Positions 6,759-64,000 of a DNA stretch of 64,000 nucleotides are shown piece after piece. Both the position numbers and the translations under genes were made by a program. The notes below the pieces were generated by a model. The model did no database searches. It saw nothing but the letters and a program-made list of their open reading frames with translations, and had not been told where the DNA came from. Numbering within the stretch: the stretch's first letter is position 1; each line of letters starts with the position of its first letter. This DNA is from Rhytidiadelphus loreus. Its lineage: Eukaryota; Streptophyta; Bryopsida; Hypnales; Hylocomiaceae. The stretch covers positions 34,846,935 through 34,910,934 of the forward strand of contig OX344764.1 of assembly GCA_947034895.1 (NCBI GenBank), written 5' to 3'.

Positions 6759-6815
6759 GGGGAATGCTGGTACGCGAGCGTGGAGCGTGGAGCGAGGAAA
6801 AACAAGCGTGGAGCA
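6759..6815 (+). repeat. Left terminal inverted repeat of element A
   Basis: It starts with GGGGAATGCTGGTACGCGAG and continues as iterations of GAGCGTG-like heptamers (gcgtggagcgtggagcgagg, then aagcgtggagc). It pairs with 20036-20092. The same iterated GAGCG style marks the ends of elements B (32635) and C (47237). Confidence 0.7.
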
Positions 6816-7745
6816 AACATTTTTGGTAAAAAGAATGAAGCCTATAACCGTGGTTTTAGGTTGCCTAAAACCATGGATTTAATTTATGCCAACTTTAGAT
6901 CTTGAAATTTGGGTATCCCATATTGACCTATAACCGTGCAATTTCAAAGGATTTAGGGGTCGAAGTGGACAGGTGACATTGTCAGTTTACTAACATGTTG
7001 TAAGCATAACAATAGCAGAAGAGGACGTATAATTACTGATAGAATACTTGAACAAATTAGCTTACACATACTTTGGATATGAATGGTGTACTATACATTT
7101 CCAATTCAATGGATTCATAACAATGCCTATGACTCATGCATTGTATAGTTGTACATCAAAGCATATTCAAACAAGTGGAATATATTGAAGCCCTCATATT
7201 GCAAGAGTCCAAATGAATTCATAATCAAGATCAATTCGTGTACAAATGTTTGTGTACAGTTGCAAGACCTATAAGTTTAGGAATATCTGGAGAACCACAA
7301 ATTACGGAAGGAAATTTTAGGATGTGTCCCCAAGCTCACCATGTTCTTGACAATCACCATGCATTTCCTGCAACATATGACGTATTCACTCTACAGGGCA
7401 CTATTGAACTAATAGTCTCCCTGCCTTTTTCATCACAATGCCATTTTGTGATGACTATGACACAGTTTGGTAACAGGGTCATGAAAAGGGCAGGGAGTTC
7501 AAGAAACGAAAAGTGTCAATAGATGAATTAGTCACTGATTAAGAAAATGCATGATGATTATCAAGAACATGGTGTTCTTGGTTCATTGGGTTTCTCTTAG
7601 AAATATGTTGGAAGCACAATATAATTTAGAGACAATGGCATCCAAATGGTAATCGAAGACATCTGGTAGAAATGAACTACCAAATCACTGAATTCTACAC
7701 CACCATCATGCACTAAAAACTGCCAGAGTACAATATGTCACCACT
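6816..7745. other. Left subterminal region of element A
   Basis: Non-coding DNA between the terminal repeat and the 3' end of the methyltransferase-like gene. 'cctataaccgtg' occurs at about 6841 and 6929. Related 'cacggttatagg'-like motifs occur near the right end (about 19796 and 19918), giving subterminal inverted motifs. Open frame 7238-7522 has no recognisable domain. Confidence 0.5.
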
Positions 7746-10700
7746 TCAACTCGAGTGGGGTGAGGTCAAACTACCCTCACTATCTGATGTCTGCGAACTG
7801 GATTCTACAGCACAATCATCAACGAAATCAAGAATGCAGGGATTCACCAAATGGGCCCTAGAAGGTACTCTGGGATTCAAGGCAATAGAATCCTTGGAAA
7901 TTGCCTCAGCATAGATCGGAAGTTGATAGGATTTGGGTGGACTTGGAAAGAAGCCCGGTGTTGCAAAGAATGGTACATGTTTGCGGTTTAGAGTCACATC
8001 CTGGGCTTGCCTACACAGAGCAGGAAATACCATGTTAGAACCAAATACATGTACATGGTTATAAAGACACTAATTTGAGGACATTAAAGGGAAACTTACT
8101 TACTGAATTGGGAAGTCTTCACGATACGTTGGGGTAGTACCTTCTCGTCATTGAGATCAATGGAAGCAACATCCGAGGGAGATGGTTGTGCTTCAGTAAC
8201 CATCGCAGTGCGCATGACCGGAGCAATGAGAGCGTCGACCTTAGCCTTGTTCTCCTCAAATGCAAGAAAATGACGACGTGTAGCGCGGCAAGCTTGAATG
8301 TTGGAACCTGACAGAAAACGAAGAAGATGTTATCATGTGCCAAACAAACTAAATAAATGACGTACTTTTATGTGACAAACCCAGAAAGTGAGTAAAAACA
8401 AACCAGTCGTTGCGTTGCAGTCCATCACGACATCCCTTGGTGCAGAACACGCCTCGATGAGCATCTGCATGAAAGGCCGGGCCTTTTCACGAGAACCCCA
8501 CCACGGTTTAGCGCCATTCATAGCCACGTCATCTTTGCCACAAAAGTTTTGGAGGATGTCATCTTTATCAACATTTACTCCAACCGCATCATAAGAAGGA
8601 ACGGTTTGGAATGAAAATCGTGGCGCAGTGCTGTTTACCACAAGAGAGATGGCAAACCTCATAGTTTGCCAAACAATAAGAGGAAGAATGTCATTTGATT
8701 GACATAAAAGATGAGTGCACTAATATGTAAAACAAATGGAAGGTTAGTTACCGTCATATTTGGGTCTGCAGGTGATGTGAGGTGTAGACGATTCATGCCC
8801 AACCAAGACTGGACAACTTTATACCCATACTCCTCACAACATCCAAGAAGGTGGCTTTTGTGGGCTCGACTAGAAGGGTACATGATCAAAATACCACCAT
8901 GGTCATGTAGGTACTCAATCGCGAAGTCAAATACGGGCATCAAATATTCATCTCCAAACTCGTTCCACTCTGGAATAGGTCCCGAATGAGCAGAAATCTT
9001 AGGGACATGAAGACCTTCGGGGACGTCGACAATGATCAAGTCAATTGCAGATTGTGTACTGAGAACACCTTTAAAGTACCTGTCCTTGTCGCTAGAATGC
9101 TGCATGAAGAAATGAAAGCGTGAGGGAATGAGTAGGTGAAATGAAGAAATAGTGATTTATAAATCTAGCATCAATGAAAACAACAAATGTAACCACAAGA
9201 GAATAATTGAATCCGAATTTTTTTTATGTCACTTCGATTCATGAAAATACTTGGACGACCCATGTAGACAACAATATACAAAGCAAGCATTACCATGGCC
9301 AATAAATTGAGGACATCGTTGTAAGCCCTTGGAGTAGACTTACTCCCCGTATCGAGAAGACGTGACACAAATAAGTTGATAATGCACTCATCAATATCAG
9401 GTACAGGATCGAAGTTCTGAACCGTAGGTGTCGATCCATGCAACAAGTGCTCCTAAGTAAGAGAGAAACCGGATGAAGTGTCCTTCATGTCGGCCGCGCT
9501 TGTTGCAGCTTCCTGTATCAGTGTCTCTGCCTTCCTCTTTGTGCCCTTCTTCTTGGCGTTTTCATTCTCTTTCTAGGCTTTGGCGGCAAGCCTCTTTTTC
9601 TTGTTCTCCTCTGTCTTCTTCTTTGCCTCCTCCCATCAATCCACCTTCTTCTTGTCGGCTAAATCTCGCCCCATGATTGCTTTAGCTCTGGCATCCGCAT
9701 CCAATCCCGCGAACTCATCGAACTCTAGCTCCACTATTGCAGTTTCTTTCAAGGTCTGGAAGAGATGCTCTTCTTCCGATGGAGTGAATCCTTGGTTGCA
9801 TTCAAGGTACCAAGGACAAGCTTGGAGATGTGGAGTTGTCCAATTCTTGAGCTGCTTTGGAGAGAACATGCAATCTAGAGAGGAGCGATCCAACCAAGTA
9901 GTCAAAAAAGGCGGTAAATCTGCTTTCTCGATAGCTTTCTTGTTGTATAATTCAAACTTGAAATACCTGCACACCGAAATCGAGCTTCAGACATACATCA
10001 AAATATCATAATCAAACACTTAAAATCTCTGGAGTTGAAAAGGAAGATCATAGCATGAATGGATGAGTAACTGTAATTTCACAGGATCCTTGACCAATAT
10101 TGAGCATCTGAATTAATTTGTCAATTTGTACATGAAATTTCCCACTGTCATACTCTGAAAAGAAATACTGAAATAAAAATACATTTCCTCTAGGCACCCA
10201 TATCTCAAGTATAGAATTTGGATACCTAAAGATAGAGAACGAAGATGTTAAGATGAATTGCATGAAGGCATCCCCCAAGGAACCCTTCTCAGGACCCTGA
10301 GGGGTCTGACGGGGTCCCCCATTAAGGTACTTCTTATATTTATAATACGTTATCTAGTTCCTCCAGAACTCACAATAGGACAATTAATTGAAAACCCAAT
10401 GCCAGAGAAGGAAGGCATGTAAAAGAAATTGTATAATGTCAAACCAGTACAGAAACGTAATTAGAAACATACCTATATATCAAGCGCTTCACCGCAAGTA
10501 TGGATCCCCTGAAATCTTTGAACGAGTCAAACTTCTTGAAAGCGTCGTTTCCCTTGAAAACACCCGTGTAAGCATGATCCCAGAGCTTCATTCTCCACCC
10601 CTCCAAATAATCGAGTAGTGTTTGGGGTTCACTTGGTACTGAAAAGTCGATAGGAATATTATCGGAGCGGATAATGGAATCGAACATCTCCATAGCCGCA

Positions 10701-12317
10701 TCCTCCATCTAATCATCCAATGACACAGAGAAAAGGGTTACCATGTAACTAGTAAGCGTAGTAGGAATCATCTACATAGCTAAAAACTAGATCAACAGAC
10801 AAAAGGTCGTAATTGGCTTACCCTAGCATACCAAGAAGCCCTAGAAAGAAAGATAAGTAGTTTCTCCTCATTGACCAAGCGAGGAGGAAATCAACGTGCT
10901 TCTCGAGAGGGACTTGAAGCGTTAATCCATTTCAACCACTTCACCTTGTGATTTGGACTAACATTGGAAGTAGCAATCATTTGCAACTTTTCCAAGGTTA
11001 ACTCAGGCACTGCGTAGAGGCTCCAATGCCTCTCAATCTGCGTGAATTTGAGAACCAGAATGTTAGAAACAAATTTGAATAGCGTTTAAACCATCTAAAA
11101 GGTAATTTAATTTTAATTACCTCATCCAGCCATTCACGTCCGAGTGCTGAATTAGCCACAAAAACTATCTTCGACAGTTTCTTGTATAACTTGTCAGTGG
11201 AGTCTTTAATGGAACTCCTCATAGCCGCTGCTACTCCTTCTTTGGTGAACTCATCTGTTGGCGTATCCTCAGTATACTTCCAAACTGCAGCATCACTTGA
11301 TGCTGCAATTTCTTGCTAAACAGAAGAATGAAAGACGTGTCTACTTAGTATTGTGTGAAGTTCAGATCCGCTTATGATAGAAGGGGTGTTAGATAATAAA
11401 AATAACAGAAGAGTAAAGCATTAATCATACCTTGAAAATGAAGGAGGTGAAAACCTCAAGAGGAATAGAATACCAAGTTCGTTGTGTACTTTGTTGGCAA
11501 GTCTTCACTTCATTAGGAATTAGGAGCTCACTGAACTTATCAAGTTCCATGACTTCGTACTTTTGGACATGGTACAATGTATGCACTAAGTTTGTCTTGA
11601 CGTGAGAGTTCTCAGTATACCTATCAAAAAAAATTTCCACCAAATATCAATTGAGAACTAATTGAATTAAGTGTACAAAATATAAATTCAGTCGATCCTC
11701 AAACAAACTGACGCGCAAGAAAGCAAACTAATGTCTTACTTGTTAATGTCGTGCATAGCTTGCATTGCCACGCCAATCCGATTTCTAGTGTCCAAAACAA
11801 TGGAGTCCACGGATACATGCCACTCCCTATCTAGCTTATGTAGCCGCTTGATGTGATTCATCCATGCTATATGGCGGTGATTCCCATCACAAACGTAGAA
11901 CTTATGGTCTACCAAATGCTTCAGTGCTGGCATGGACCTTAGCTGTGCGTTGAAGGCGTCATTCACTGAGTTCCAAAGTGGTCCCCACTTCTCCTTTTCT
12001 TCATCAGTGAAAACACCAGTCAATCCTTGCTCATTTGAAATAGAAACGTAAAAGACACGGGCACCCTCTTCATAGCCATGAACAAATTGTTGTTCTAGTA
12101 ATGTCAAATTACAAGACAGAGTTGGTCGAACCATTGTCATGGGAACCAGTCTACAAAGCGGGATTTGCATCCTCGAAAGATCAGATGTTGTGAGTCTAAG
12201 ACTAGAAATTGTAGCCATAGTATCCATCCTATGCATCCTCCTAATGTCATCCTCCATGTAGTCTATGTCCTGCATTGTAGAGTCTGAGGACATGGCATGA
12301 GAAATGTCGGGCCCCAT
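7746..12317 (-). pseudogene. ParB-like / DNA-methyltransferase-like protein, element A copy (broken)
   Basis: The exon order matches the element C gene. Exon 1 (12317-11741) has IPLCRLVPMTMVRP and the ParB-like CDGNHRHIAW. Later exons lie near 11618-11434, 11313-11122, 11040-10830, 10708-10485, 9966-9300, 9105-8755, 8670-8406, 8309-8102 and 8012-7746. The methyltransferase-like part carries DLIIVDVPEGL where DPPY is expected, and VVMDCNATTG where motif I (DPFxGxG) is expected. In-frame stops lie at 10891-10893 (TGA at an Arg conserved in C), 9636-9638 (TGA) and 9573-9575 (TAG) in the Lys-rich linker. An intron at 9967-10485 holds the palindrome CTCAGGACCCTGAG at 10288. I judge it a pseudogene of an element-encoded gene, not a host gene. 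Confidence 0.75.
10288..10301. repeat. Palindrome in intron of the methyltransferase-like gene, element A
   Basis: CTCAGGACCCTGAG has 6-bp arms and an AC centre. It is a variant of the family palindrome, in the intron equivalent to the one in element C that holds 60913-60928. Confidence 0.55.
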
Positions 12318-12503
12318 CTCTTGGTCAACCTATAGGAGCAAAACGAAGTATTTGAATAGATGATAATGAAACATAATGTATTTCTCCATAACCAGAAAAC
12401 AATGTTCTTCTAAGAACTCTGTGAATATGATATGTTCCAATAGTCATATATAAAAAAAATATTCAAAGTCATACATAAGTAAACGGAAATTGAAGACTAG
12501 TCA

Positions 12504-12899
12504 TCAATCACCATAGAAAAGTTCCCACTGGCATGCCGCACTAATGGGTCTATACTGTTCCCAACAGAAGATAAGAATGTCATCATCTCCGTCTAAAATT
12601 GAGGTGACTTCTATATCATCATGGCCACATGTACAGATTTCAGTGGAGTCTTCTCTGATGGAGAGTTGGAGTACTCGTTCATTATCCCCAATAGAATTGC
12701 AACAAGAGTTGGGGGGGAACGTCAAATCCTCTCTATACAAGTCATCAAGAGGATCTCCTAGTTCCAACATAAATGCATCCAAGCTTACCCTAGGCACATG
12801 GATCAATAATGGCACATGATCCACAAGCACATGGGCCTCGACTATAGATCCACCAGTTGCATTCGCACCAATCCCTGGAAATATTTGGCATACAAAATC
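12504..12899 (-). CDS. Small Cys-containing frame conserved between elements A and C
   Basis: The open frame ends ...EICTCGHDDIEVTSILDGDD, then DILIFCWEQYRP and a stop. Element C has the same pattern at 58333-58818 (CTCDHAELEVTS, then DILIWCCGHYR). Shared core: CTC-x-H-x3-EVTS-x2-D-x-D-x-DILI-x-C-x3-YR. The frame stays open upstream to an AG at 12900-12901 that could be a splice acceptor. I see no nearby upstream ATG, so it is more likely an exon than a stand-alone gene. It could be a 5' exon of the adjacent methyltransferase-like gene or a third element gene. The Cys/His residues suggest metal binding, by inference. I do not recognise the family. Confidence 0.5.
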   Translation of the reverse strand, partial: DFVCQIFPGIGANATGGSIVEAHVLVDHVPLLIHVPRVSLDAFMLELGDPLDDLYREDLTFPPNSCCNSIGDNERVLQLSIREDSTEICTCGHDDIEVTSILDGDDDILIFCWEQYRPISAACQWELFYGD

Positions 12900-13050
12900 C
12901 TAGGGTAAGGCATGAGATAATCAAGGACCTGAATCCTATGGATTAAAACATCATACTGTCGGGTAGCTCTAACCAATATAAACAGAATTCAGAGATTAAA
13001 AACCCACTATGGAACACAAAATAAGAATAAATGATAGGCTCATAAACAAT

Positions 13051-14822
13051 CAAGAATCCCACGACTTGCACCCTCCAGAGACCCTTCTCGGGACCGAGAC
13101 GACACCGGCAAGGAGGAGGGGCGAGCGTCCCGAATTGACCTGGCTCTATGCAAAAGGCTGCTGGAGCGGCCAAGCAGCCGCAACAATATAGAATGTGAGC
13201 TCGGGGCTTCATCACCCGAGCCACACCGTAACTTGGACGACTGGGATCACGCCGTTAGAGCGCCTCCTACTCCTTGTCACCGGGAATGAAAATCCCACGA
13301 CCCGCACTCCCCAGGGACCCCTCTCCGGACCGAGATGACACTGATAGGGGGAGGGGTGAGCGTCCCAAACTCACCTGGCTCTATGCAAAAGGCTGCTGGA
13401 GCGGCCAAGCAGCCGCAACAATACAGAATGTGAGCTCGGGGCTTCATCACTTGAGCCACACCGTGACTTGGACAACTGGGATCACAACATTGGAGCGGCC
13501 TCTTGTTCCTGGTCACCGGGAACGAAAATCCCACGACCCGCATCTACTAGGGACTCCTCTCCGGACCGAGACGACACCGGCAGGAGGAGGGGTGAGCGTC
13601 CCAAACTCACCTAGCTCTATGCAAAAGGCTGTCAGAGCAGCCAAGCAGCCGCAACAATACAGAATGTGAGCTAGGGGCTTCATCATCCGAGCCACACCGT
13701 GACTTGGACGACTGGGATTACGCCGTTGGAGCGGCTTCTTGTTCCTCGTCACCGGGAATGAAAATCCCACGATCCGCACCCACTAGGGACCCCTCTCGGG
13801 ACCGAGACGACATTGGTAGGGGGGAGGGCTGAGCGTCCCGAATTCACCTTGCTCTATTTTAAAGGCTGCCGGAGCAGCCAAGTAGCTGCGACAATACAGA
13901 ATTTGAGCTCGGGGCTTCATCACTCGAGCCACACCGTGACTTGGATGATTGGGATCACGCCGTTGTAGCGGCCTCCTGTTCCTGGTCACCGGGAACGAAA
14001 ATCCCACGACCCGCACCCGCTAGGGACCCCTCTCCGGACCGAGATGACATCGGCAAGGGGAGGGGTGAGCGTCCCAAACTCACCTGGCTCTATGCAAAAG
14101 GCTACCGAAGCAACCAAGCAGCCATGACAATACAGAATGTGAGCTCGGGGCTTCATCACCTGAGCCACACCGTGACTTGGACGATTGGGATCACGCCGTT
14201 GGAGCGGCCTCCTGCTCCTCGTCACTAGGAACAAAAATCCCATGACCCGCACCCACTAGGGACCCTTCTCGGGACCGAGACGACACCGGTAGGGGGGAGG
14301 GGTGAGCGTCCCGAATTCACCTTGCTCTGTTTTAAAGGTTGTTGGAGCAGCCAAGCAGCCACAACAATACAGAATTTGAGCTCGGGGCTTCATCACCTGA
14401 GCCACACCGTGACTTAGATGATTGGGATTATGTCGTTGGAGCGGCCTTCTCCTCCTCGTCACCAGGAACGAAAATCCTACGACCCGCACCCGCTAGGACC
14501 CCTCTCCAGACCAAGATGACACCGACAGGGGTGAGGGGTGAGCGTCCCAAACTCACGTGGCTCTATACAAAAGGCTGCCGAAGCGGCCAAGCAGCTGTGA
14601 CAATACAGAATGTGAGCTTGGGGCTTCATCACCCGAGCCACACCGTGACTTGGACGACTGGGATTACGCCGTTGGAGCGGCCTCTTGTTCCTGGTCACCA
14701 GGAACGAAAATCCCACGACCTGCACCCGCTAGGGACCCCTCTCGGGATCGAGACGACACTGGCAAAGGGAGGGGTGAGCGTCCCAAACTCACCTGGCTGT
14801 ATGCAAAAGGCTGCCGGAGCGG
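13051..14822. repeat. 236-bp tandem array of element A (7 units plus a partial)
   Basis: Units start at 13081, 13317, 13553, 13789, 14026, 14262, 14498 and 14735 (period 236-237). Each begins with ACCC-T/C-TCTCGGGACCGAG or a one-base variant, which holds the palindrome CTCGG-GA-CCGAG. A second inverted pair, CTCGGGG...CCCGAG, sits near mid-unit, so the motif recurs about every 113-124 bases. The array is GC-rich in an AT-rich window. Open frames within it on both strands are repeat by-products. It lies between the two divergent genes. Confidence 0.9.
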
Positions 14823-15889
14823 ATGATGGTGGTGATTCTTACCTGGTGAGTAGGGTTTGGCGGAAAGGGATTCGGCGTGCCATCATCTCTATGTGGGACA
14901 CTTCCTTGTCCCACACTGTCAATTCCCTGAGCACGCCACGACCGTAAGTTCCTGTCCATACTAAAAATCTTTTGGACAACTCTGGAATGCGAGAGGATTC
15001 GGAAGAAAGAGATGAACTGCATACACAAAATGGAGATGTGAGGGTGAGGCTTTGGTTGATCTAGAGGGAAGTCGGCGATAAGCAACAACAAAGACAGACT
15101 ACGGTTCCTTCACTACCGAGCCTAGTAATGGCTCCGATCCGCACGAGAACATTGGTATGATCCCCGAAGGACTTGGTTCAAGAGCCCTGAAATTAAGGTC
15201 GGATCTTTTTCCTTCATCCGTAATCAATGAATATTTATCTTCCCATGAGATTCTAATTCATTAATTTGATTCATTAATTTTAATTCTATGGCAATGATTT
15301 CTCTGTATTATGAGCCTACACCGCCATATTATGGATAACGGTTACGAAAGATATTATGACAAGAATAATTGAGAATGAATTTGATCATAGTGGCGCTTGG
15401 TTATAAGTGAATACTTCCATATTCAAATGGATTCGGATTATTTTTTAGAGTAATTAAAGGCAGTTATTACTAATATAGATTGTCTAACTTGTAGGATTGG
15501 AGAGGACACTATGTACGTATTTCATGTCAGCATGGAAGATCCTGGATCTTCAGATCCTTCAAATTAGGTGTTCATATCCTCTTTGTATTTCCCTGCCTTT
15601 TAACTAAAATTTAATTACGATAATATTGGTAATTTATTGGTGACCATTTTCATACGACCATTTCCGTATTTTTCTGTGTCGTTTATTGCAGTAAAGTGAT
15701 TCATCTCTTCTAGTCTTGACAGCAACTAGTAATTGTGGTTTACGTTTTCTTCTCATTCAAATCCCTAGTATTTATGGTTTTGAAATTAGAATGATTGTTA
15801 TGCTAGGCGGGGTGTGTGCTCATCGTGAATTATGTTTCCACTTTCCATTACATTAGTTTTACATTGGTCTTTGTTTGTCGCGCTCTGTG
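14823..15889. other. Upstream region of element A transposase
   Basis: Non-coding DNA between the array and the transposase start, presumably its promoter and 5' leader. I see no clear TATA box or conserved block shared with B or C. A minus-strand frame (14789-15091) shows no domain. Confidence 0.3.
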
Positions 15890-18800
15890 ATGACTTCGAG
15901 AATGTCTTTTGAGTCAATGGTTGTTGTTAGGACACACGGGGAAGCGGTACCGATTTCGTTTCAAATTGATGAAGTGGGGTATGCGATCGTCAATGCCTTT
16001 CGTTTGAGTATTAGGTTCCTTTTATCTGAGAAGTCATTACATATAGATGAAAAGGTTTTTGATATTACAAGTGGAGTGTTGTCGCACACCCTGGGTCATG
16101 AACTTGTTTCTTTAAGCCCATGTCGGCAATGGCATCTTAAGCCAAGAAAATATTTAGCTTATGGTCTGTCTCAATCTAACTCAGAGACGTCATGGGGTGA
16201 TGGAACTCCGAGAGTATCATCTGGTTCTACTCCGAAAACTCCTTTGCTAGGAAAAGTCAAGATCAAACCTGCTATAGAGGTCATAGAAATTGAAAGCGAC
16301 GACTCACATGACTCATCACCTCCTCACAGAGTCCTAAAGAAAATTCGGATGCAATCAGATGCAACTATCTCACGCGGAGGCACCGCATAGCACTCATTAA
16401 CGAGACCGAATGGGATGGATGTTCTCCCATTCCATTTGAGGTTGGTTTGACCCCCCCTTCTGATTCATCAATTACATGTAAAATTTGCTTTGTAGTTCCT
16501 TCCTGTATTGCAAATTGCCCTGCCAAAATATACTACATAGTTGGAAAGAAGAACATGCGATGGGCATGTGTTCACTTCGGAATCCATGAGCACCCTGTGA
16601 AAGTTGGAGACTGCCGTGACTCCAAAGAGAGGACTCGGACATTAATTTCGGATCATGTGGAGACGAACCCTTCCGCAACAAATTTTTCTATTGTCTTAGA
16701 GGCAAGCAAGGAGTTTTTAGGAGAGATGCTGCTTCAACCAGAAGGAGCCCCTGCTGTTCCTATTGGTTTGGACGATCTCGTGCCAGTTCTGGAGAAGTGC
16801 AAATTCATGAGTTCCCCTAGCATTCGAAATGAAGTGGCAACCTTCAAGTATTTTTGACGATTTGGAGTCATGGATAGCATCACAAAGCTACGGGTTTGCA
16901 GCAATTGGGCTTATGTTCAAAAGAACAAGTTCCTCTGTCAAGGATCTGATTCAGACAAAGTGTTTGTCTTCAAGATGTCGGAGGTTGGTCCAGGGAGTGG
17001 CGTCGATTTAGTAACACGAATGCAACCTGGTGGTGATCTCTAAGGCGCTTGGATTATGTTTGATCATGTCAAGGGAGTGAAGCAGTGGACTACAATTGTG
17101 TGTCATGTTTATGACTCAAGTTACTGTAGAGTCATGACTATTGCTGTCTGTGACATGCAGTCTAAAGATTCGACTGCCCAAAGAAATTTCTGGACTAATT
17201 TGAACGCAGTGATGAACAAGCATGGTATTGCCTTGCCTTTTTTCAAGGAATTTATGGCGGATTGTGCACAGGCAAACTGGAATGCGGTCAGAATTGTTTA
17301 TGGAAGTGGTGACCCTCTACAGCCTATGGTAGATTGAGAACGGACATGTCTCTTCCACTAGACTCAATCTATAGAGAAACATACGATAGCAGACATTCGC
17401 GTAGACCTTCGAGATCAACATCGAAAGCTGTGCAAGCAGTATAAGGATGCACCATCGCCATCTGAGTCTGACATTAGATTTCATGCCATTCGTGCATGGT
17501 GGCACTCTTCGGGTGCAACAACAGAAAGATGGGCTTAAACGACTGGAGTTGTGGTTAGCGTTTTGGCACTTCCGATATAGACAGTGGGGAGGATTCATGC
17601 AAATTGTAAGAATATATATATCCTCATTTCCATTCCTTCTGTGAAATATTGATTATTGACTTCGCTTTCTGGAGTTGCTTGTAATTATTGCTTCTAGTCG
17701 ATATATGTTGCCTTCATTGATACATGAGGGGATCCTTTCGTTGATTTTCTTAAAAGGACCCTAAATCCATTTAAATGCAATACAACTTGTTTTCCCTATT
17801 TCTAACCTATGTTCACCGGTTTAGGATTTGCCTGTGAATGAACTTACAGAGATGCCTTCTTGCAACCTGGCCGAGACAGTCCACAACAAATGGCTGCAAC
17901 AATCCGGGAATAGAGGGAATGATTTGTATGTGGCAATTGTTGATGATTATGTTAGAGCATTCATGCAGATGGTTCGATACTACCAGTTTTTGAAAGGTGA
18001 GAGTTATGGAACCGGTCCAGGAAAAGAAGAACTTTGACTCCGAGTAGCATAACGGTATGCTCAGCGCACTGGAAATCCTACTAGACTTCATGATGCAATG
18101 GCAACGGTGCCGGGTACTAGAGAATATTGCACAAGAGATCCTCATTTTGAAGGTGAAGAAGTTTTTGGATCTCAACAACGAATGCCGAACTAACCCCCAG
18201 GTTCTCAGCATGATTCGCACCGCCTCGACAAAGTGAATTTATCCCGACCTTGTGTAGGAACAAGGTCCACCAGAGCAAATGCAGCTATAATTTCTCTAGG
18301 GACAATTTCTGAATAAACATTACTTCATGTACCCATAAAAGAGCTAGAGGTCCAGGTGTCAAATAACCATACGAATGCATCAACGGCATCGGTATACCCT
18401 CGAGTGACAAGTGTCGAAGAGAGCGCTTGCGATGAATCCCAATGGTATATTTCCCGATTGCCAAAGACATCGGCTAAAACATGTTTTGCTTTACGAGCCC
18501 TTACAGGGAAGAAGTGTGTCGCAAAGATTGTGCAAGGTAATAGAGGAACTGCCGCCCCAACTTATACAGGTGACATGGACAATTATAGAAAGAATAGGAT
18601 TGAGAGGATGCAATTCTTCTTCTGCAATGATGACATTGAGCGGTGTGTGAAAGGTTCGAAGAGGAAATGGGTCCTTTTCAAACCACAAGTGCCCCACATT
18701 TGGCCAGTGAAATTTGGAACTCATCTTATGCCTAAGGAGATATTAGATCTTCAGAATGCTGGGTTTTGTCTCCCTCAGTGTCTTCAAATCTCTCCCTGCA

Positions 18801-20092: not shown

Positions 20093-20102
20093 GAGAACGT
20101 TG

Positions 20103-21088: not shown

Positions 21089-21094
21089 AGCAAA

Positions 21095-52520: not shown

Positions 52521-54436
52521 GATGGATAAACTGAATTGAATTAGTGAACACCAGGAGTCTAAGGTACGTTTTGCAGTGAACTAAATCTGAAGTTTGAAGT
52601 CGAAGAAGAACTTCAATAGAAGAAAATAAACACCCCTCCAAATCAAGAGAAAGAAGAAGGAATTCGGCACCATTGATATATCTGGATCAATTCGAACTTT
52701 CTAACGGATATATGCAACCTGTGGATCATAACATAGTTAGTCTCCATATTTGTTGATGAGTAGAGGTCCTCATCAAATGGCGGCGACTAGCATTAATACT
52801 CATAACCGTATATTTGCTGTCCTCAATGAAACAGTACTCCTCATGTGTAAATGCAGTAAAGAGGCTTGTTTTAAATAACTAAATTTTACTGTCTGGGATC
52901 CATCCTACCTAGTTATATAATGTCGTTTATTTTATGCACGGAATCCCTGATTAATAATGTGACCGCCAATGACTTATCCCGCAAATGATATGATTTATAC
53001 CAATGGATACTACATATTTTAACTGGAAAAGCTATGTACAATTGAAATCACAAAACTAAGCATTGCGGAGAAGTGGCAACATAAAGATTCCTTAGACAAT
53101 AATCGTTATTAGATGCACATGGGAGATATGAAGGTAGAACTGTAGAAGGTCTATGGTGCTAAATGAATTAACTAAACGATGCCAACATGCATGGGATCCA
53201 CATGAAGGAATGTCATAGGGAACATGCTTAACCTACAAAGAGTCTCCTCGAAAAGAATTACATGATTTGGAAGCACTTCCAATTCCATCAATTTTTGGGA
53301 AGCCCTGACCACAGCATAAAATGACAGTGACTAGTATGGTTAAATACAGTAAGACACGTAGAGGGTTTCTAATAAAGAACATGTGACTATTGATAGAATA
53401 ATAGAGCTGAATCCAACATAGTTTACTTCATACAGATAATGGAATATAGTGAATTACCAAATATCATCCATTGTGGGGGGTTTAGGGTTTAGGGGGCATT
53501 GAAATGAAGCATGACTCAGAGTTACATTGTGCAGGATTCGATATACCACATATGCACATATCAGGAGGTTGTCCATTGGGTTGACAACAGATTACCACAT
53601 TTTCTAAACATTCAAATATATGCGTCGAATTCCACAGAGTTCCTATAATAATGAAAAGACTAGGGCTAGGTTATAATTCCACTCGTCATCGACGGAAAAT
53701 TTACTAAAAGAAATTTGACATGTTTTACCTCCCCAGAATTCATTTCCAGTGCCCAGATGCTCCTCATTTGGACCTCTTACCATATTTATGATTTACAGTT
53801 AAATAGCGGAAATACTTCAAGGCGTTGAAAAATCCAAATTTCATGAAGGTACCATGAGACCTCGATCCCCAAATATATTAGAAATACCCTCCTAACTACC
53901 ATCTTCAATGAAGTTCGGCTCCAGCAAAGTCTTAAGCAGTCTTGTAACGAAGAAGGAAGGAAGTATCTCATCCAGTTTGACTTGGGCTCCGTCCCCCATC
54001 GACATTGCCTCTTGCCGTCGTCTCTCAGGGTCGCCTTGCACCTTCTGTACCCTAAGGGACAGAATTTGCGCCGCCTTCTCCCCTTTGACTCACTTCGGTC
54101 ACTCTCCACGGCGAATCTGGAAGCTCTCAAAGTGTATGCTCAACTGGACAATCGCCGCTCTTGTATCAAGCTGTACAATCTGCGTTATGGCGGACCGGAA
54201 TTTGCGGTCGAAGAGGGGCCAACTTGGAATCACGGAAGCGGGACGTGATGCATCCAACTGGAATCGGGAGGTACGTTCTCGTTCTCTGAGGCTTGATTCA
54301 ATTTTCGTCGGTTTCGGAATCATCATCGCCGTGTTCTGAGTGAAGCTAGTTGGCCAGCTCCTTCCCCGCGGGTAAGAAATCCACGTTGTTGGCCTCAAAT
54401 CGGGGCCACCGATGATTGTGAGGCCGATTTGGTTAT
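52521..54436. other. Upstream region of element C transposase; telo-box at 53478-53494
   Basis: Non-coding region between the divergent genes. 53478-53494 reads gggtttagggtttaggg, two plant telomeric heptamers. On the transposase strand it is a telo-box (AAACCCTAA). Telo-boxes are known plant promoter elements; activity here is inference. Frames 53786-54130 and 53908-54339 show no domain. A possible donor, GAG|GTACGT, lies at 54268-54273. Confidence 0.4.
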
Positions 54437-57400
54437 CATTTGGTGGGGTACCGCCTGTAAGGCCAGCTCCCCAAGCTCACGGATCCCAGACAGTTGGTCT
54501 CGGTTGACCACCGATTATGGTGTTTTCGATTTGGTATTCATTTGGTGGGGTGCAGCACTCTAGGCCAGCTCCCCTTGGTCTCGGCCGCGATATCACCTTG
54601 ATGGTCTTGCCCGTAGAAACCCTTGCTTGTATATGCGGTTTGGTTTTCGTTTGGTGGGGTGCAGCACTAAAGGCCAGCTCCCCTACATCCCGGCCCCGAG
54701 GGCTTGAGGTTCAGTCTGTTGGGCTTGCCCGTGGCGACCCTTGCTTGTGTCTGCGGTTTGGTTTTCATTTGGTGGCGTGCAGCTTGTAAGGCCAGCTCCC
54801 CAAGGTCTCGGCCCCGAGGGCATGAAGTTCAACCTGTTGGGCTTGCCTGTGGGGACCCTTTGTTGTGTATGCGTTTTAGTTTTCATTTGGTGGGGTGCAT
54901 CACTGAAGGCTAGCTCCCCAAGGTCTCGGCCACGAGGGCATGAGGTTCAGCCTGTTGGGCTTGCCCGTGGGGACCCTTGCTTGTGTCTGCGGTTTGGTTT
55001 TCATTTGGTGGCGTGCAGCTTGTAAGGCCAGCTCCCCAAGGTCTCGGCCCCGAGGGCATGAAGTTCAACCTGTTGGGCTTGCCCGTGGGGACCCTTGCTT
55101 GTGTCTGCGGTTTGGTTTTCATTTGGTGGCGTGCAGCTTGTAAGGCCAGCTCCCCAAGGTCTCGGCCCCGAGGGCATGAAGTTCAACCTGTTGGGCTTGC
55201 CCGTGGGGACCCTTTGTTGTGTATGCGTTTTCGTTTTCATTTGGTGGCGTGCAGCTTGTAAGGCCAGCTCCCCAAGGTCTCGGCCCCGAGGGCATGATGT
55301 TCAACCTGTTGGACTTGCCCGTGGGGACCCTTTGTTGTGTATGCGTTTTAGTTTTCATTTGGTGGGGTGCAGCACTGAAGGCTAGCTCCCCAAGGTCTCG
55401 GCCCCGAGGGCATGAGGTTCAGCCTGTTGGACTTGCCCGTGGGGACCCTTGCTTGTGTTTGCGGTTTGGTTTTCATTTGGTGGCGTGCAGCTTGTAAGGC
55501 CAGCTCCCCAAGGTCTCGGCCCCGAGGGCATGAAGTTCAACCTGTTGGGCTTGCCCGTGGGGACCCTTTGTTGTGTATGCGTTTTAGTTTTCATTTGGTG
55601 GGGTGCAGCACTGAAGGCTAGCTCCACAAGGTCTCGGCCCCGAGGGCATGAGGTTCAGCCTGTTGGGCTTGCCCGTGGGGACCCTTGCTTGTGTCTGCGG
55701 TTTGGTTTTCATTTGGTGGCGTGCAGCTTGTAAGGCCAGCTCCCCAAGGTCTCGGCCCCGAGGGCATGAAGTTCAACCTGTTGGGCTTGCCCGTGGGGAC
55801 CCTTGCTTGTGTCTGCGGTTTGGTTTTCATTTGGTGGCGTGCAGCTTGTAAGGCCAGCTTCCCAAGGTCTCGGCCCCGAGGGCATGAAGTTCAACCTGTT
55901 GGGCTTGCCCGTGGGGACCCTTGCTTGTGTCTGCGGTTTGGTTTTCATTTGGTGGCGTGCAGCTTGTAAGGCCAGCTCCCCAAGGTCTCGGCCCCGAGGG
56001 CATGAAGTTCAACCTGTTGGGCTTGCCCGTGGGGACCCTTTGTTGTGTATGCGTTTTCGTTTTCATTTGGTGGCGTGCAGCTTGTAAGGCCAGCTCCCCA
56101 AGGTCTCGGCCCCGAGGGCATGATGTTCAACCTGTTGGACTTGCCCGTGGGGACCCTATGTTGTGTATGCGTTTTAGTTTTCATTTGGTGGGGTGCAGCA
56201 CTGAAGGCTAGCTCCCCAAGGTCTCGGCCCCGAGGGCATGAGGTTCAGCCTGTTGGACTTGCCCGTGGGGACCCTTGCTTGTGTTTGCGGTTTGGTTTTC
56301 ATTTGGTGGCGTGCAGCTTGTAAGGCCAGCTCCCCAAGGTCTCGGCCCCGAGGGCATGAAGTTCAACCTGTTGGGCTTGCCCGTGGGGACCCTTTGTTGT
56401 GTATGCGTTTTAGTTTTCATTTGGTGGGGTGCATCACTGAAGGCTAGCTCCCCAAGGTCTCGGCCCCGAGGGCATGAGGTTCAGCCTGTTGGGCTTGCCC
56501 GTGGGGACCCTTGCTTGTGTCTGCGGTTTGGTTTTCATTTGGTGGCGTGCAGCTTGTAAGGCCAGCTCCCCAAGGTCTCAGCCCCGAGGGCATGAAGTTC
56601 AACCTGTTGGGCTTGCCCGTGGGGACCCTTGCTTGTGTCTGCGGTTTGGTTTTCATTTGGTGGCGTGCAGCTTGTAAGGCCAGCTCCCCAAGGTCTCGGC
56701 CCCGAGGGCATGAAGTTCAACCTGTTGGGCTTGCCCGTGGGGACCCTTGCTTGTGTATGCGTTTTCGTTTTCATTTGGTGGCGTGCAGCTTGTAAGGCCA
56801 GCTCTCCAAGGTCTCGGCCCCGAGGGCATGAAGTTCAACCTGTTGGGCTTGCCCGTGGGGACCCTTGCTTGTGTCTGCGGTTTGGTTTTCATTTGGTGGC
56901 GTGCAGCTTGTAAGGCCAGCTCCCCAAGGTCTCGGCCCCGAGGGCATGATGTTCAACCTGTTGGGCTTGCCCGTGGGGACCCTTTGTTGTGTATGCGTTT
57001 TAGTTTTCATTTGGTGGGGTGCAGCACTGAAGGCTAGCTCCCCAAGGTCTCGGCCACGAGGGCATGAAGTTCAACCTGTTGGGCTTGCCCGTGGGGACCC
57101 TTGCTTGTGTCTGCGGTTTGGTTTTCATTTGGTGGCGTGCAGCTTGTAAGGCCAGCTCCCCAAGGTCTCGGCCCCGAGGGCATGAAGTTCAACCTGTTGG
57201 GCTTGCCCGTGGGGACCCTTGCTTGTGTCTGCGGTTTGGTTTTCATTTGGTGGCGTGCAGCTTGTAAGGCCAGCTCCCCAAGGTCTCGGCCCCGAGGGCA
57301 TGAAGTTCAACCTGTTGGGCTTGCCCGTGGGGACCCTTTGTTGTGTATGCGTTTTAGTTTTCATTTGGTGGGGTGCAGCTTGTAAGGCCAGCTCCCCAAG

Positions 57401-58120
57401 GTCTCGGCCCCGAGGGCATGAAGTTCAACCTGTTGGGCTTGCCCGTAGGGACCCTTTGTTGTGTATGCGTTTTAGTTTTCATTTGGTGGGGTGCAGCTTG
57501 TAAGGCCAGCTCCCCAAGGTCTCGGCCCCGAGGGCATGAAGTTCAACCTGTTGGGCTTGCCCGTGGGGACCCTTTGTTGTGTATGCGTTTTAGTTTTCAT
57601 TTGGTGGGGTGCAGCTTGTAAGGCCAGCTCCCCAAGGTCTCGGCCCCGAGGGCATGAAGTTCAACCTGTTGGGCTTGCCCGTGGGGACCCTTTGTTGTGT
57701 ATGCGTTTTAGTTTTCATTTGGTGGGGTGCATCATTGAAGGCTAGCTCCCCAAGGTCTCGGCCCCGAGGGCATGAGGTTCAGCCTGTTGGGCTTGCCCGT
57801 GGCGACCCTTGCTTGTGTCTGCGGTTTGGTTTTCATTTGGTGGCGTGCAGCTTGTAAGGCCAACTCCCCAAGGTCTCGGCCCCGAGGGCATGAAGTTCAG
57901 CCTGTTGGGCTTGCCATTGGGGACCCTTGCATGTATATGCGTTTTGGTATTCATTTGGTGGGGTGCAGCATTGAAGGCCAGCTCCCCATGGTCTCGGCCC
58001 CCCATGTCTTGAAGTTCAGGCTGTTGGGATTGCCCGTGGGCCAACGGGTTTGTGTATGCGGTTCGGTTTTCATTTGGTGGGGTGCAGCCTGTGTGGCCAC
58101 CGTCCATGAGGCACAGAGTC
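54437..58120. repeat. 118-bp tandem array of element C, about 30 units
   Basis: The unit is 118 bp. Starts (AAGGCCAGCTCCCC) fall exactly on 54788 + 118n up to 57974, with degenerate units on both flanks. Nearly every unit has GTCTCGGCCCCGAGGGC, so there are about two dozen CTCGG-CC-CCGAG palindromes. Variant bases recur at a shift of 826 bp (7 units). For example, the 'ttggacttgcccgtggggac' variant occurs at 55310 and 56136, showing block duplication. 118 is not a multiple of 3, so the many open frames are by-products. Each unit ends in a pyrimidine-rich stretch and GTGCAG. Confidence 0.95.
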
Positions 58121-58332
58121 CACGCTGTTGAGCTTTGCTTTGGCTACCGGAGTTTATGTATGCGGATAGGTATTCATTTGTTGGGGTGCGGAACTGTGAT
58201 GCTGCCTCAAGGGCCTGCTCAACGTCGTTTTGGTGTCCGCACTGTTGGACTCGCTCGGTGGCTTGTTCTTTTTCATTTGGCTTACGGTGAGGTTGATTTG
58301 GTGATGTGCAGGAACGGATTCTCTCGTCTGAG

Positions 58333-58818
58333 ATGGGACCAACTGTGGAGGTCCCCAAGCCCCCCCTTGTGGAAGAAGACTCTGAGGTTCAACCACCGGA
58401 GGTGGTGGACCGCGTCGAGACACTGGAGGTGGATGTCCAGCTGCAGCCACTGGCGGTGGGGAACCAGCCACTAGAGGTGGAGGTCGAGCTCCTTCGGAAC
58501 ACGTCGACGGAGATGGGTGACCAAGTCCAGATTCCATCGCAACCACTAGTAAGTTCTGCGAGGCAACATGGAATACGAATTCAGGGTGTTAGTAGAGGCT
58601 TAGGGAGGCGTGTGAGTGGAGACAGGTCCAAGAGTTCTTCTATTGGATCAACAAACGATAGTGATTCGAATTCTCTAACTCATGAGACTATTGAGTACTG
58701 CACTTGTGATCACGCAGAATTAGAGGTGACATCCGCAGTTGACACGGATGCCGACATCCTGATATGGTGTTGTGGGCATTATAGAACATTGAACGACAAA
58801 TGCGAATGTGGCATTTGA
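58333..58818 (+). CDS. Small Cys-containing protein or 5' exon, element C
   Basis: From the first in-frame ATG at 58333 it has 161 codons. The N-terminal half is rich in Val, Glu and Pro (MGPTVEVPKPPLVEEDSEV...). The C-terminal part (YCTCDHAELEVTS, then DADILIWCCGHYR, then CECGI) matches the element A frame at 12504-12899. An AG at 58307-58308 (GTGCAG) could be a splice acceptor, so the frame may start earlier. It sits between the tandem array and the ParB/methyltransferase-like gene and reads in the same direction. It may be that gene's 5' exon (with the stop spliced out) or a third gene. Family unrecognised; metal binding is a guess. Confidence 0.5.
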   Translation: MGPTVEVPKPPLVEEDSEVQPPEVVDRVETLEVDVQLQPLAVGNQPLEVEVELLRNTSTEMGDQVQIPSQPLVSSARQHGIRIQGVSRGLGRRVSGDRSKSSSIGSTNDSDSNSLTHETIEYCTCDHAELEVTSAVDTDADILIWCCGHYRTLNDKCECGI

Positions 58819-58963
58819 ATGGGATTCTCATTTCTATATTTATGTTTTATGAGACATATTTTAACAGCTTGATGTAGGAGTGTGGAATGACAACTATACA
58901 TATAGCTACTTGTTACATTATAATAATCGCGCATGATATCCTACCTTGTCGCAGACCAGCTTA

Positions 58964-61900
58964 ATGTCGAAGTCAATGGTGAAGCCCCCCACTATCACCG
59001 GTTCTGCGATGATGGAGGATCAGAGAAATCCCGAAATTATATCTGAATCAGACGAGGAAGATATGGATATTCCAGGAGTGGGGAAGGATGCAATGGAGGA
59101 TGACATCAGGAAGTCACAAAAATTGGACACTGTTTCAATTCTCCACGGTTTGAGGTTGACATCCACGGAGGCATCCCGCATGAAGATCCCATTGTGCAGG
59201 CTTGTGCCTATGCCAATAGTGAGACCAACTTTGGCCTGCGACTTGACATTGTTGGAGCATCAGTTCACGGGGGGGTACGAAGAAGGGGCTCGAGTGTTTT
59301 ATGTTTCTATCTCAAATGAAGATGGGGACGGTGAGGTATTCTCTGATGCAGAGAAGATTGAATGGGGATTATTGTGGAATTCCGTCAATGATGAATTCAA
59401 CAACTTCTTGAGGTCTGATCCTGTGCTCAAGCATTTGGTGGATCAAAAGTTTTTCATTTGTGATGGAAACCACAGGAGAATTGCGTGGATGAACCACATC
59501 AGTCGGCTACATGCCACGGACAGGAGTTGGCACATCAGTGTCGACTCTATCGTATTGGATACACGAGGACGTATTGGGGTTGCAATGCAAGCTATGCACG
59601 ACATCAACAAGTGAGCTTCCCGTTGTCAATTCATATGATTGTTATATTTAGATTTCCAACTCTAATACTTTTTATTCTGGTTCGATGATCCTAATTGTAA
59701 TGTCTTCTGAGATACAGGCATACAGAGAGCTATCATGTCAAAACCAATCTCGTACACACCCTCTTTCGAGTGCAGAAATACGGGACAATGGAACTAGACA
59801 AGTTCACTGAGTTACTCTCTGCCGAAGAGTTCAAGATCTGTCAGAACAATACTCGATCTAAATGGTATACGGTGCCATTAGAGGTCTTCACTTCGTTCAT
59901 CTTCAAGGTGAGCAACTGTCACTATTGGACTCATGTACAAGGTCTGTACATTTGATTCTCTTTCTCATTGTTCATGGGTGATATCCATTGTCTCAGCAAG
60001 AGATTTCGGCGGCGGCGGAGGTGGCTATTCGAAAATATAAAGAGGACATTTTGGCTGAGGATATGACGCCGGATGGAGTTGCCACGGCCATGAGGGTCTC
60101 CATCAAAGAATCGAACGAGAAGTACCAGAAAAAATTGTCCAAGATAGTGGCAGTCGCCAATCCCGCCCTAGGACCTGATTGGCTCTTGGAGGTATGTTGT
60201 AATCCGTACTTCATAGTTCACTTGTTGATTCTCTAAGATATAGATGGTGATTCATTACTTCTTCCCCAATTGATGCAGATCGAACGACACTGGAATCTAT
60301 TTTCAATTCCAGAGTTAACTCTAGAGAAGCTGCAAATGATGGCCACTGCAAATGCTACTGCGGAGTCAAAAGTGAAGTGGATGAATGCATCCGGCCCCAC
60401 TAGAGAGGCGCGTCGGTTTCCACCTCGTCCCGTGAACGAGGAAAAGTTGGCATTGTTTCTGGCTAGGGCATGTTGGTACTCGGGGGTATGCATTCTATGA
60501 ATCGTTTTTTATGCTGACTCACTATTGTTTTATTTCATTTCTCTCTGATATGGATTTCTGATTGTAAATCTAACATCCGTGATACTGTATGTGATAGTTG
60601 GAAGAGGCGGCTTCCGAGTTGTTAGACTCTATAATGCGGGCAGATAATGTTCCTGTGAACATGTCCGTTCCAACTGAACCAAAAACACTTAAGGAATATA
60701 TTGAGGGATGGAGAATGAAGGTGTGGGATATTGCCTACACGGGTATGTTTAGGGGGGGAGACGCTTACAAGAAGTCAGACAACTTCAAAGACTACAAGGG
60801 CGCAATGCTGGCGGTTCACCGTGTCATCTATAGGTATTTTTCACTCCTTCCTTCATGTACTTCCTTTACCGATTCTCCACGTTTGTACATGCTCAGGGTC
60901 CTTGGGATGGTAGTCTCGGTGCCGAGACCACTGAAATCAGTGCGTCACTCTTGCAACATGGGATGCTTGCTAAAACTTCCTTTCATTCATTTTACTCTAA
61001 TTTAAACCCTCTTTGGTGGTTCATTCAATTATGCTCTAGAGTACGTGCTTTGTATGCTTCACTAAGTTCGGTGAGATGTCATCATATTGGTGTGCTTAAT
61101 CCAAACAAGAATTTGTACGTTACATGTTCCATCATTGTCATCTTCCTTTTTATTTGCACAGGTATTTCAAGTTCGAGTTGTATGCCAAGAAGGCCATAGC
61201 CAAGGCTGACTTGCCACCATTCCTGACGGCTTGGTTGGATAGATCGAGGGATGACTACATGTTTTCAGCATGGCAGCTCCGAAACTGGACCACTCCACAT
61301 CTTCAAGCCTGCCCTTGGTACATTGAGTGCAACTTGGGATCCATTCCACCCGAGGAGGCACCTTTGTTCAAGACATTGAAGGAAACACCGGTTGTTGAGC
61401 CTGAATTCGATGAGTTTGCTGGACTTGATCCAGAAGCCCGATCGAAGGCCATTGCCAAACGGGATGCGTTTGACAAGAAGAAGGTGGAGAGGCTGGAGGA
61501 GGCAAAGAAGAAGACGGAGGATATAAAACTCAAGAGACTAGCAGCAAAGGCCGAGAAGGATCAAGAGAAGGCAAAAAAGAAGGGCAAGAAGAGGAAGGCC
61601 GAGACTCCCTTGCAGGAGCCAGCAACTAGCGCCGCAGACGTCAAGGACACATCGTCCAGCTTTTCGCTGACTCAGGATCGACTCGTTCATGGTCTTACGC
61701 CACCTATTCATCACTTGGATTCTGACCCAGCTATTGACGAATGCATTTTGAATATTTCGTTGCGGGGTCTAACCCGTGACAAGAAGGCCCTTGAAGCCGT
61801 CGAAGGCTTTTTATCCATGGTATTTCGGTTCTCTGGCTTATTTTCTATTGAATTCAATCCTTCACGGAACATGAATATGATATATGCCAATCTCATATTC

Positions 61901-63348
61901 TTTTTGTTCATCGCTTGTCTTATAATTTCAGTGTGTCTTCAAAACCGTTTTTGGAATTTTCCAAGTACTTAATCTCCTCTGAATGTTTTAATGCAGTATG
62001 CTGGCGATAAACAACGATACTTTGACGGAGTCCTGACTACAGAGTCCGCGGTCGACTTGATTCTTGTTGATGTTCCAGAAGGACTCCATGTGCCTACCGT
62101 ATCTGCTCCTCCTGCATCGATTCCGACGTGGAACCACTTCTCTGATGACTGGTTGATTCCAGTCTTTGACTTTGCAGCTGGTTATCTACACGACAATGGA
62201 GCACTTATTGTGATGTACCCATCCTCTTCAAAGTCGCACCGGAGCCAACTTCTTGGATGCTGCAAAGAATATGGATTCAAGATTCTCGTGGATTGGTGGG
62301 GTATGAACCACCTTCACTTGACATCAGCAATTGATCCCAAGAAGACGGTAATAACCATTTCATATTCATTTTCGTCTTATTCGGAAATTCACCTAAACGA
62401 TTGACTAATAAATGATTCTTTCTTGTTTCAGACCCAGCGGTTTTCAATCGCTCTTGTGGTCAAGAAATCTGGACCAAAAACGGAGGACGACTTCCCGTTC
62501 CAGCATGTTCCTTCACATGCGAAGGTCGGCGTCACCGTAGGCAAGGATGATTGCCTAAGGAACCTATGCTTCGCCGAGGAGGTCACCATGAATGGTGACA
62601 AACCATGGCGCGGTCCTAGAGAGAAGGCGTCGAGTTTCATGGTGATGCTTGTGGAAGGGTGCTGCGAACCTGGATCCATTGTCGTCGACTGCACGGCAGC
62701 TACAGGTACATTTCAATGAGTATTAAATACATTCTTCTGTCACCTTCATTTTCTATTATTTGGAATACATCTCATAAATGTGACGGATGCGCAAGGACTA
62801 GCATTCTGGCTTGCCGAGCCACTGGACGTCATGTTTTAGCCTTCGAGGAAGATGAGGCTATCTTTGAGGCCCTTATCAAACCAGTCATTCGTCAAGCTCC
62901 GTTTCTTCCTACCGCAGACACACGCGGCGTTGATGCTGCAGTTGATTTGGATGAGGAAGAAGTGCCAGCACAACAGATTGTGAAGACTTCATTCTTCAGT
63001 AAGTAAGTCACACCGGTTCAGCTTCCTCATTGATTAATTTATTTGGGTCTAATTTACCCTTCATCTAATATATGGTTTACTTGATTGTATAGGCAAGCGG
63101 CAAAAGTGAGACGCGGCTCACATATTCCATTCTTCGAAAACCCTTCATTTTTTCCAAGTCCACCAAAACCATTTCTACTTCCCGAATACGCGGAATCTCT
63201 TTCAAGGGATTATGTTGCCCTAAACCCTAGGCCTAGTTATAGGGCTACTCTTGTTGATCCTCGTGTTCTTCAGTTTATTGATGACTCCGCTGTTGAGTCG
63301 GATATGGAAACATCTGACAGTGAGGGCAGTTCCTTATCCTCTGACTAA
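58964..63348 (+). CDS. ParB-like / permuted DNA-methyltransferase-like protein, element C
   Basis: Ten exons: 58964-59610, 59718-59907, 59997-60191, 60279-60485, 60598-60833, 61162-61819, 61997-62347, 62432-62705, 62795/6-63002, 63093-63348 (about 1073 aa). Residues about 75-200 look ParB-like (IPLCRLVPMPIVRP ... FFICDGNHRRIAW, Asp near 167). A Lys/Glu-rich coiled linker spans about 594-645. From 712 a beta-class (permuted) N6-adenine/N4-cytosine methyltransferase-like fold follows: DLILVDVPEGL at motif IV (Asp near 736), GALIVMYPSS, then KASSFMVMLVEGC and VVDCTAATG at motif I (near 914), then GRHVLAFEEDEAIF. DPPY has become DVPE, so catalysis is doubtful. The exon 9 acceptor appears mutated (AAGG at 62793-62796 where AGGG would keep frame). 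A start upstream of 58964 is possible. Confidence 0.75.
60913..60928. repeat. Palindrome in intron 5 of the methyltransferase-like gene, element C
   Basis: GTCTCGGTGCCGAGAC has 7-bp arms and a TG centre. It lies in the intron between VIYR and YFKFEL. Element A has a related palindrome (CTCAGGACCCTGAG, 10288-10301) in the same intron. Confidence 0.8.
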
Positions 63349-64000
63349 TGTTGAAGTCATAACTTGACATTACCGTTTTCATTTTGGTGACGCATATTAC
63401 TTTTCTCATGTATTAAATTCGGATTATCTACAGGTTCACTTGAAGGGTACTCTGTAGTTGCATGATTGAATGGGCATTACATCTTTCTTGTTGAAGCTCT
63501 AATTATTATTAATCCGGTTATCCGCCTCACCTTACAGTCTATGACCTCTGTCTTGGTTTTCACTTATTATCCATAACTTGTTGTTCATTATGTTATGTAA
63601 CAAAGCAATTCAAGGACATACAACCCGAATTCAAAATTGAAACCGGGACTGTCACTTCTGCATTTTATTTTAATATCACTGGTGCATTCTTCTGTAATTT
63701 GACAAACTCTAGTTATCTCTCGCTTCTTTCATTCGCGGAATAGGGGGAATAATAGAAGATTATGTATTTCAGATTAAACTTTAGTCCCTCTCGGGGTTCT
63801 GAATTTCTCTACCACAGTCTACGGACCTTTCCTTCAATTTCTAGTTTTCTAATTTCTGTCCCCACCAATGAATCATTGATTGCACTGAGCAAGACGAATG
63901 CACCCTAAACACTGATCTCGGTCCCGAGAGCTGGTCCTTCCCTCAACACAGTCTGCCCCCCAGTATAAATTTCAGGCTTCTACTTGATTTTCTTCACTAA
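63349..64000. other. 3' flank of element C with one palindrome
   Basis: Non-coding subterminal region. TCTCGGTCCCGAGA at 63916-63929 is another copy of the shared palindrome (6-bp arms, TC centre). The terminal repeat is not reached. Confidence 0.6.

Follow-up and report, generated by a model that had tools for sequence, protein, structure and literature searches.

Three giant DNA transposons, A, B and C, lie in the window (the whole stretch of 64,000 nucleotides analysed; C4:34846935-34910934 in a 407-Mb genome), and each carries a transposase gene and a partner gene on opposite strands, pointing apart. It is proposed, with a probability of about one half, that these MULEs carry a self-recognition protein. 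The transposase would act on the inverted ends with their GAGCG/GTGAGC repeats. The partner, read as a ParB-like nucleotide-dependent DNA clamp fused to a methylase-type S-adenosylmethionine-binding domain, would bind the candidate site (T/C)CTCGG-NN-CCGAG(A/G), which recurs in introns, towards the 3' end and in the promoter region that the two divergent genes share. Loading at these palindromes, it would spread along the element and would keep element DNA distinct from host DNA, modifying or reading it. Its most likely role would be to prevent host silencing or undo it, the part that VANC plays for VANDAL MULEs.

The two-gene unit was recovered in three diverged copies by all-frame self-comparison of the window, and the single architecture that the first-pass annotation had described was confirmed. 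Palindrome arrays, the nesting of C in B and the missing methylase motif DPPY were no part of that annotation. Element A (6758..20092, + strand, 13,335 bp) has both ends present, with the partner on the left (-) and the transposase on the right (+). Its inverted ends (6773-6812 / 20065-20026) scored 45 against a shuffle maximum of 25, and an exact target duplication, GAGAACGTT (9/9), lies outside both ends. A 19-bp duplication for A (18/19 matching) was rejected, as matching of ends across elements gave the exact 9 bp plus chance flanking matches. The left part of element B (32631..47232, +) is followed by C, past which B resumes and ends at 67933 in the genome (whole span 32631-67933; 15,238 bp without C). 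The B inverted ends (32631-32690 / 67933-67866) scored 55 against a shuffle maximum of 27, and its 10-bp duplication is CACTATGGCC (10/10). Element C (47233..64000, +; 20,056 bp) extends past the window to 67288 and sits within exon 2 of the B transposase gene, at the SWIM motif. C was taken as nested in B because the B transposase reading resumes just past the end of C (67288); an arrangement of B and C as a head-to-head pair was rejected on the same ground. The left end of C (47233) was common to all 9 further copies fetched, with different flanking DNA in each. Its right end was reached in 1 of 7 loci fetched, and that one other copy (L043/L052) has the exact duplication CACGAGGGG (9/9). 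The target duplication of C itself, GTCAGTTGC/GTCGGTTGC, matches at 8 of 9 positions.

The inverted ends are short (~40-68 bp), score above all 200 shuffles in each element and carry GAGCG/GTGAGC repeats. Together with a SWIM zinc finger, terminal inverted repeats in each element and target duplications within 8-11 bp (A, 9/9; B, 10/10; C, 8/9; L043/L052, 9/9) support the earlier assignment of A, B and C to giant MULE-type elements. A second array of C (32-bp unit x 33; L040:352-1406, window-equivalent 64317-65371) separates its partner gene from its right end and has a palindrome of its own, with CTGCC arms and a 4-bp spacer. Open reading frames between A and B (24116-31143) resemble LINE-type retrotransposon remains; 29674-31143 matches zf-RVT (E 8.1e-6, just under the Pfam cut-off), which is typical of plant L1 elements, and this weak match suggests a plant host.

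The transposase gene of C (48613..52502, -) consists of two open exons (~52502-50412 and ~50088-48613; splice sites approximate) and encodes ~1188 aa with GCM-like, putative DDE and SWIM parts. That of A (15917..19290, +) is degenerate with a broken reading frame, and that of B (43460..47232, +) has a stop at 44297-44299 and is interrupted by C at the SWIM motif. SWIM zinc fingers have the form CxCx(n)CxH, and by reading, CTCP...CKH follows the putative DDE domain in exon 2 of both C and A. For the GCM-like DNA-binding region, 1odh was ranked first by Foldseek (E 0.019). A Pfam search with the spliced C transposase returned no family at E<=1, and 33 transposase relatives gave one weak Transposase_mut match (E 0.18). 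With a transposase exon as query, 157 relatives were retrieved from the protein database at E<=10; among the 120 listed, all had 1.2e-111 or better. A ubiquitin-like/DIX-like domain was predicted at the N-terminus (residues 23-111, within 50313-52580). One 4.1-kb contig of a Synechococcales cyanobacterium assembly (L009) encodes a 45% identical transposase relative and is probably eukaryotic contamination of that bin.

The partner gene of C (58964..63348, +) was aligned in ten exons (58964-59610, 59718-59907, 59997-60191, 60279-60485, 60598-60833, 61162-61819, 61997-62347, 62432-62705, ~62795-63002 and 63093-63348), and the acceptor of the ninth is lost. The partner gene of A (7746..12329, -; exons 2-11 by alignment) has four in-frame stops and has lost the acceptor before 8668; that of B (33631..37914, -) has two in-frame stops. 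All ten aligned exons are found in A, B and C, with nine introns placed alike wherever splice sites are readable, so that the reported conservation of exon structure, order and orientation holds. Counted from exon 2, the gene comprises ~1070 codons. Protein identity is 63% between C and A and 45% between C and B. Synonymous sites are saturated between copies (pS 0.79-0.83), whereas pN is 0.23-0.38 for the partner (885-900 codons, last two exons left out) and 0.36 for the transposase (B-C, 662 codons). Because pS is saturated and pN is not, both proteins, judged by their codons, have evolved under purifying selection.

Four partner genes (A, B, C and L057) were read through to the end, starting at exon 2, and not one is intact. 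In L057 a single base is missing from exon 2, and stops interrupt exons 6 and 7. The reading of L058 began inside exon 6 and met one stop, in exon 7. The acceptor lost in C is present in both L057 and L058. Exon 2 was free of stops in 28 of the 30 best-scoring partner copies. A conserved piece 5' of exon 2 (58636-58806 in C, 12698-12528 in A; 40% identical, CTC..DILI) ends in stops in both frames and has no consistent splice to exon 2; it may represent one more exon or a third, small gene.

When the protein database was searched with the full-length partner, none of 7988 candidates reached E<=0.001, probably because the relatives held there are exon-sized. A partner exon as query gave 299 relatives at E<=10, and among the 120 listed all had 2.4e-52 or better. 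No relatives were found in the viral contigs searched. In other assemblies, entries of 555,475 and 185,737 in size appear among both transposase and partner relatives, which suggests that the same contigs carry both.

Exon 2 of the C partner (58964..59610, +) encodes the ParB-like domain with CDGNHR. A ParB-like fold of this N-terminal domain, of the ParB/Srx kind, is supported by structure prediction, and KorB and Noc rank among the best fold matches of the partner in Foldseek. DGNH is invariant across 60 sequences, and the R after it nearly so. The ParB-like domain announced from the first reading is upheld by the predicted fold. Against it, no Foldseek match of this region reached E 0.001, a ParB model was absent from the 16 Pfam families matched at E<=1 by 60 exon-2 relatives, and a profile search of the PDB with exon 2 gave weak matches to unrelated proteins.

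The methylase-like domain (61997..62705, +) has DVPEG at the place of DPPY, followed by VVDCTAATG, which we take to be motif I of the methylase. The Pfam family N6_N4_Mtase (PF01555) matches the partner C-terminus in all three copies (best E 1.1e-4), so the methyltransferase-like part was recovered, although copy C (E 1.4e-4, 22.3 bits) stays under the Pfam cut-off of 26.7 and DPPY is missing. The match begins downstream of the DPPY place. N6/N4 methylases have the catalytic motif (D/N/S)PP(Y/F/W); here DVPEG is found in A and C and DMLEG in B, and because of this replacement catalysis is doubtful. The nearest solved sequences are DpnA and CcrM, both weak (E 0.013-0.47). N6/N4 methylase matches above the Pfam cut-off were also seen in the same assembly on small contigs (L001-L008; C295, C426, C309, C318, C174, C245 and C62), which are probably bacterial contamination.

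Pairing of the two genes was assessed genome-wide with 59 transposase copies and 150 scored copies of partner exon 2 (1388 candidates). A partner lies upstream of the transposase, on the other strand, for 38 of the 59 within 10 kb, for 43 within 20 kb and for 50 within 45 kb; random placement would give 0.245 at 20 kb and 0.53 at 45 kb. Other arrangements numbered 0 at 10 kb, 1 at 20 kb and 1 at 45 kb. Among the nine unpaired transposases, at least one (C4:41171094) retains the DNA of its partner, whose exon 2 has a broken frame. Partners with no scored transposase nearby may pair with unscored copies, and some may stand alone. The co-occurrence of both genes is therefore frequent in this genome. 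A single-copy host gene standing apart from any transposase, which would have counted against the first-pass annotation, is rejected for the partner, with at least 150 scored copies of exon 2 that are often paired with a transposase.

The candidate binding site is strongly enriched. At up to 2 mismatches, the window has 42 occurrences of TCTCGGNNCCGAGA, where 1.18 would be expected, all of them within the elements. In A, a tandem array between the genes (13055..14820; 236-bp unit x 7.5) contains 7 sites of TCTCGGNNCCGAGA, 3 exact and 4 with 1 mismatch. The corresponding array of C (54602..58099; 118-bp unit x 29.6) contains 28 sites of CTCGGNNCCGAG at up to 1 mismatch, of which 24 are exact. 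In the intergenic region of B (38080..40437) the palindrome CCCTCGGNNCCGAGGG is matched 11 times, with no more than 3 mismatches. Further sites lie outside the intergenic DNA: two palindromes in the B transposase intron (45792..45858), one with 1 mismatch and one with 2, and perfect ones in the C transposase intron (TCTCGGGACCGAGA, 50265..50278), in an intron of the C partner gene (TCTCGGTGCCGAGA, 60914..60927) and 3' of that gene (TCTCGGTCCCGAGA, 63916..63929). The palindrome was found neither in the A transposase intron nor in the inverted ends. In a motif-blind scan for GC-rich palindromes, CTCGG with a 2-bp spacer was, among the 15 most frequent arms, the only one present in all three elements.

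In diverged copies, the palindrome was present in the array of each of L059 (268-bp unit), L060 (118-bp) and L061 (170-bp), and in L060 and L061 in the partner intron as well. The remaining one of the four diverged copies fetched, L062, had no palindrome in the 8.8 kb read, a stretch without its partner. The array units themselves have been replaced. Units of A and C score like shuffled sequence, in agreement with the earlier statement that the DNA between the genes is not conserved, and their homology is not supported (z 1.4 after masking of the palindrome). With the palindrome masked, z was at most 2.1 in 12 of 15 unit pairs, and three pairs were weakly related (C-L060, z 6.3; C-L061, 4.9; A-L061, 4.4). 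In close copies the intron palindrome was exact in 24 of 30, and it was not clearly better kept than the surrounding intron.

In the whole genome, GTCTCGGNNCCGAGAC was counted 236 times against 1 for its reversed control, and CCCTCGGNNCCGAGGG 227 times against 2 for its control. The C-form sites listed numbered 50, all on C1, and for 35 of them a scored transposase or partner exon is found no more than 5 kb away (0.27 at random). On C1 the co-location was specific to the subfamily. Within 10 kb, 22 of 36 C-form clusters lie near a C-type partner and none near a B-type one (0.30 expected at random), the other 14 being without a scored partner of their own type in lists that are partial. Likewise, 7 of 31 B-form clusters have a B-type partner (at least 70% to B) nearby, none has a C-type one (0.13 expected), and 24 are without a scored own-type partner in these partial lists. 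At 15 kb, 23 C-form clusters are near a C-type and 1 near a B-type partner. Each element contains both the palindrome sites and the partner, so common descent is enough to account for co-location by itself. At C1:72403137-72404581, 14 B-form palindromes with ~95-bp spacing lie away from any partner exon in the scored lists.

The positions of the palindrome bear on which protein would use it and for what. Its sites are distant from the inverted ends, where the transposase would have repeats of its own, and on the simplest reading the protein of the palindrome is the partner. Intergenic, intronic and 3' sites, and replacement of the units with the motif kept, parallel the targets of VANC; for this reason self-recognition with anti-silencing is favoured, and on our analysis ranked ahead of pure autoregulation or active methylation. 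A bolder version is held tentatively: a eukaryotic transposon superfamily would have acquired a ParB module of prokaryote type along with its parS-like sites, the palindrome in the quickly rebuilt tandem arrays of each subfamily would co-evolve with the ParB-methylase of that subfamily, and the protein would load, spread over 13-20 kb and mark self, a portable anti-silencing system in a plant-like nucleus.

Among the alternatives, the one that survives best, though rather unlikely, makes the partner mainly an autoregulator, like KorB or Noc, that would set the transposase level from palindromes between the divergent promoters, its methylase-like domain being a non-catalytic S-adenosylmethionine sensor or scaffold. 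In A, C, L059, L060 and L061 the arrays do separate the two divergent genes, and the fold matches to KorB and Noc and the absent DPPY motif fit as well; a promoter switch alone, however, needs no single palindromes in the transposase and partner introns or 3' of the partner. Less probable still is an active N6-adenine or N4-cytosine methylase that would mark its own element, with the palindrome as targeting site. The authors of the Ectocarpus study, in its available text, propose such activity for their protein (PMC12477816). The N6_N4_Mtase match in all three copies, the recognisable motif I and the weak proximity to DpnA and CcrM are consistent with it, but (D/N/S)PP(Y/F/W) is kept in none of the three copies and the Pfam match starts past its place. 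It is equally improbable that the palindrome is bound by the GCM-like DNA-binding region of the transposase, or by a host factor, while the partner acts elsewhere; the transposase does have such a region, but the palindrome was not found in the inverted ends, which carry other repeats.

It has long been asked how transposons discriminate their own DNA from host DNA and how they evade silencing. VANC, which is not known to be related to the partner, is a worked example of such an escape, and the self-recognition reading would add a second MULE lineage with a different protein, by fold related to bacterial DNA clamps, and with a candidate binding site. Should this site prove correct, clamping of the ParB type would operate on eukaryotic chromosomes too, and the related proteins reported from algal transposons of other superfamilies may share this logic. 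In the ParB-parS, Noc-NBS and KorB-OB systems a ParB-fold protein is combined with a short palindromic site, clamping and spreading; here the palindrome has another sequence, the carrier is a eukaryotic transposon, and no ParA or plasmid setting was seen. In the available text of a study of such proteins, ParB-family members bind short palindromes and then spread as nucleotide-gated clamps, and phage and prophage proteins that fuse a ParB-CTPase with an N6_N4 methylase are linked to mobile elements (PMC12704722). These share with the partner two domains in one protein and the link to mobile elements, but belong to bacteria and phages, whereas the partner comes from a eukaryotic gene of several exons and has a long middle region and a diverged methylase motif IV.

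Among MULEs, VANDAL elements likewise carry an accessory protein whose target motifs accumulate in non-coding DNA, where the text available describes rapidly evolving tandem repeats between genes, within introns and at the termini; the VANC motif there, YAGTATTAY, is arrayed in one orientation and is no palindrome (PMC5735166). A MULE catalogue, as far as its text was available, gives 8-11 bp duplications, SWIM, short to long inverted ends and extra ORFs, some antisense, as in A, B and C; its extras are PMD, DUF, SET, OTU, FAR1, zinc-finger or unknown ORFs, with no ParB or DNA methylase there, which sets the present partner apart (PMC6446971). In the titles and opening abstract lines listed for open-licence papers, neither a MULE with a ParB or DNA-methylase partner nor the palindrome or its arrays were found. 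The claim that no such MULE had been described thus stands for that literature, but the type of partner is in print for one Sola-1 case. This is Sola1-1_Ec32 of Ectocarpus, a 21.5-kb DNA transposon with a 1104-aa ParB-like and N4/N6 methyltransferase protein antisense to the transposase, and similar accessory proteins are cited there for green and red algae (PMC12477816). By description alone it resembles the present elements as a giant element with a ParB and methylase partner opposite the transposase; it differs in belonging to the Sola-1 superfamily of a brown alga, and the available text mentions no palindrome arrays (PMC12477816). The partner is of a known kind, in what looks like a transposon superfamily not previously linked with it.
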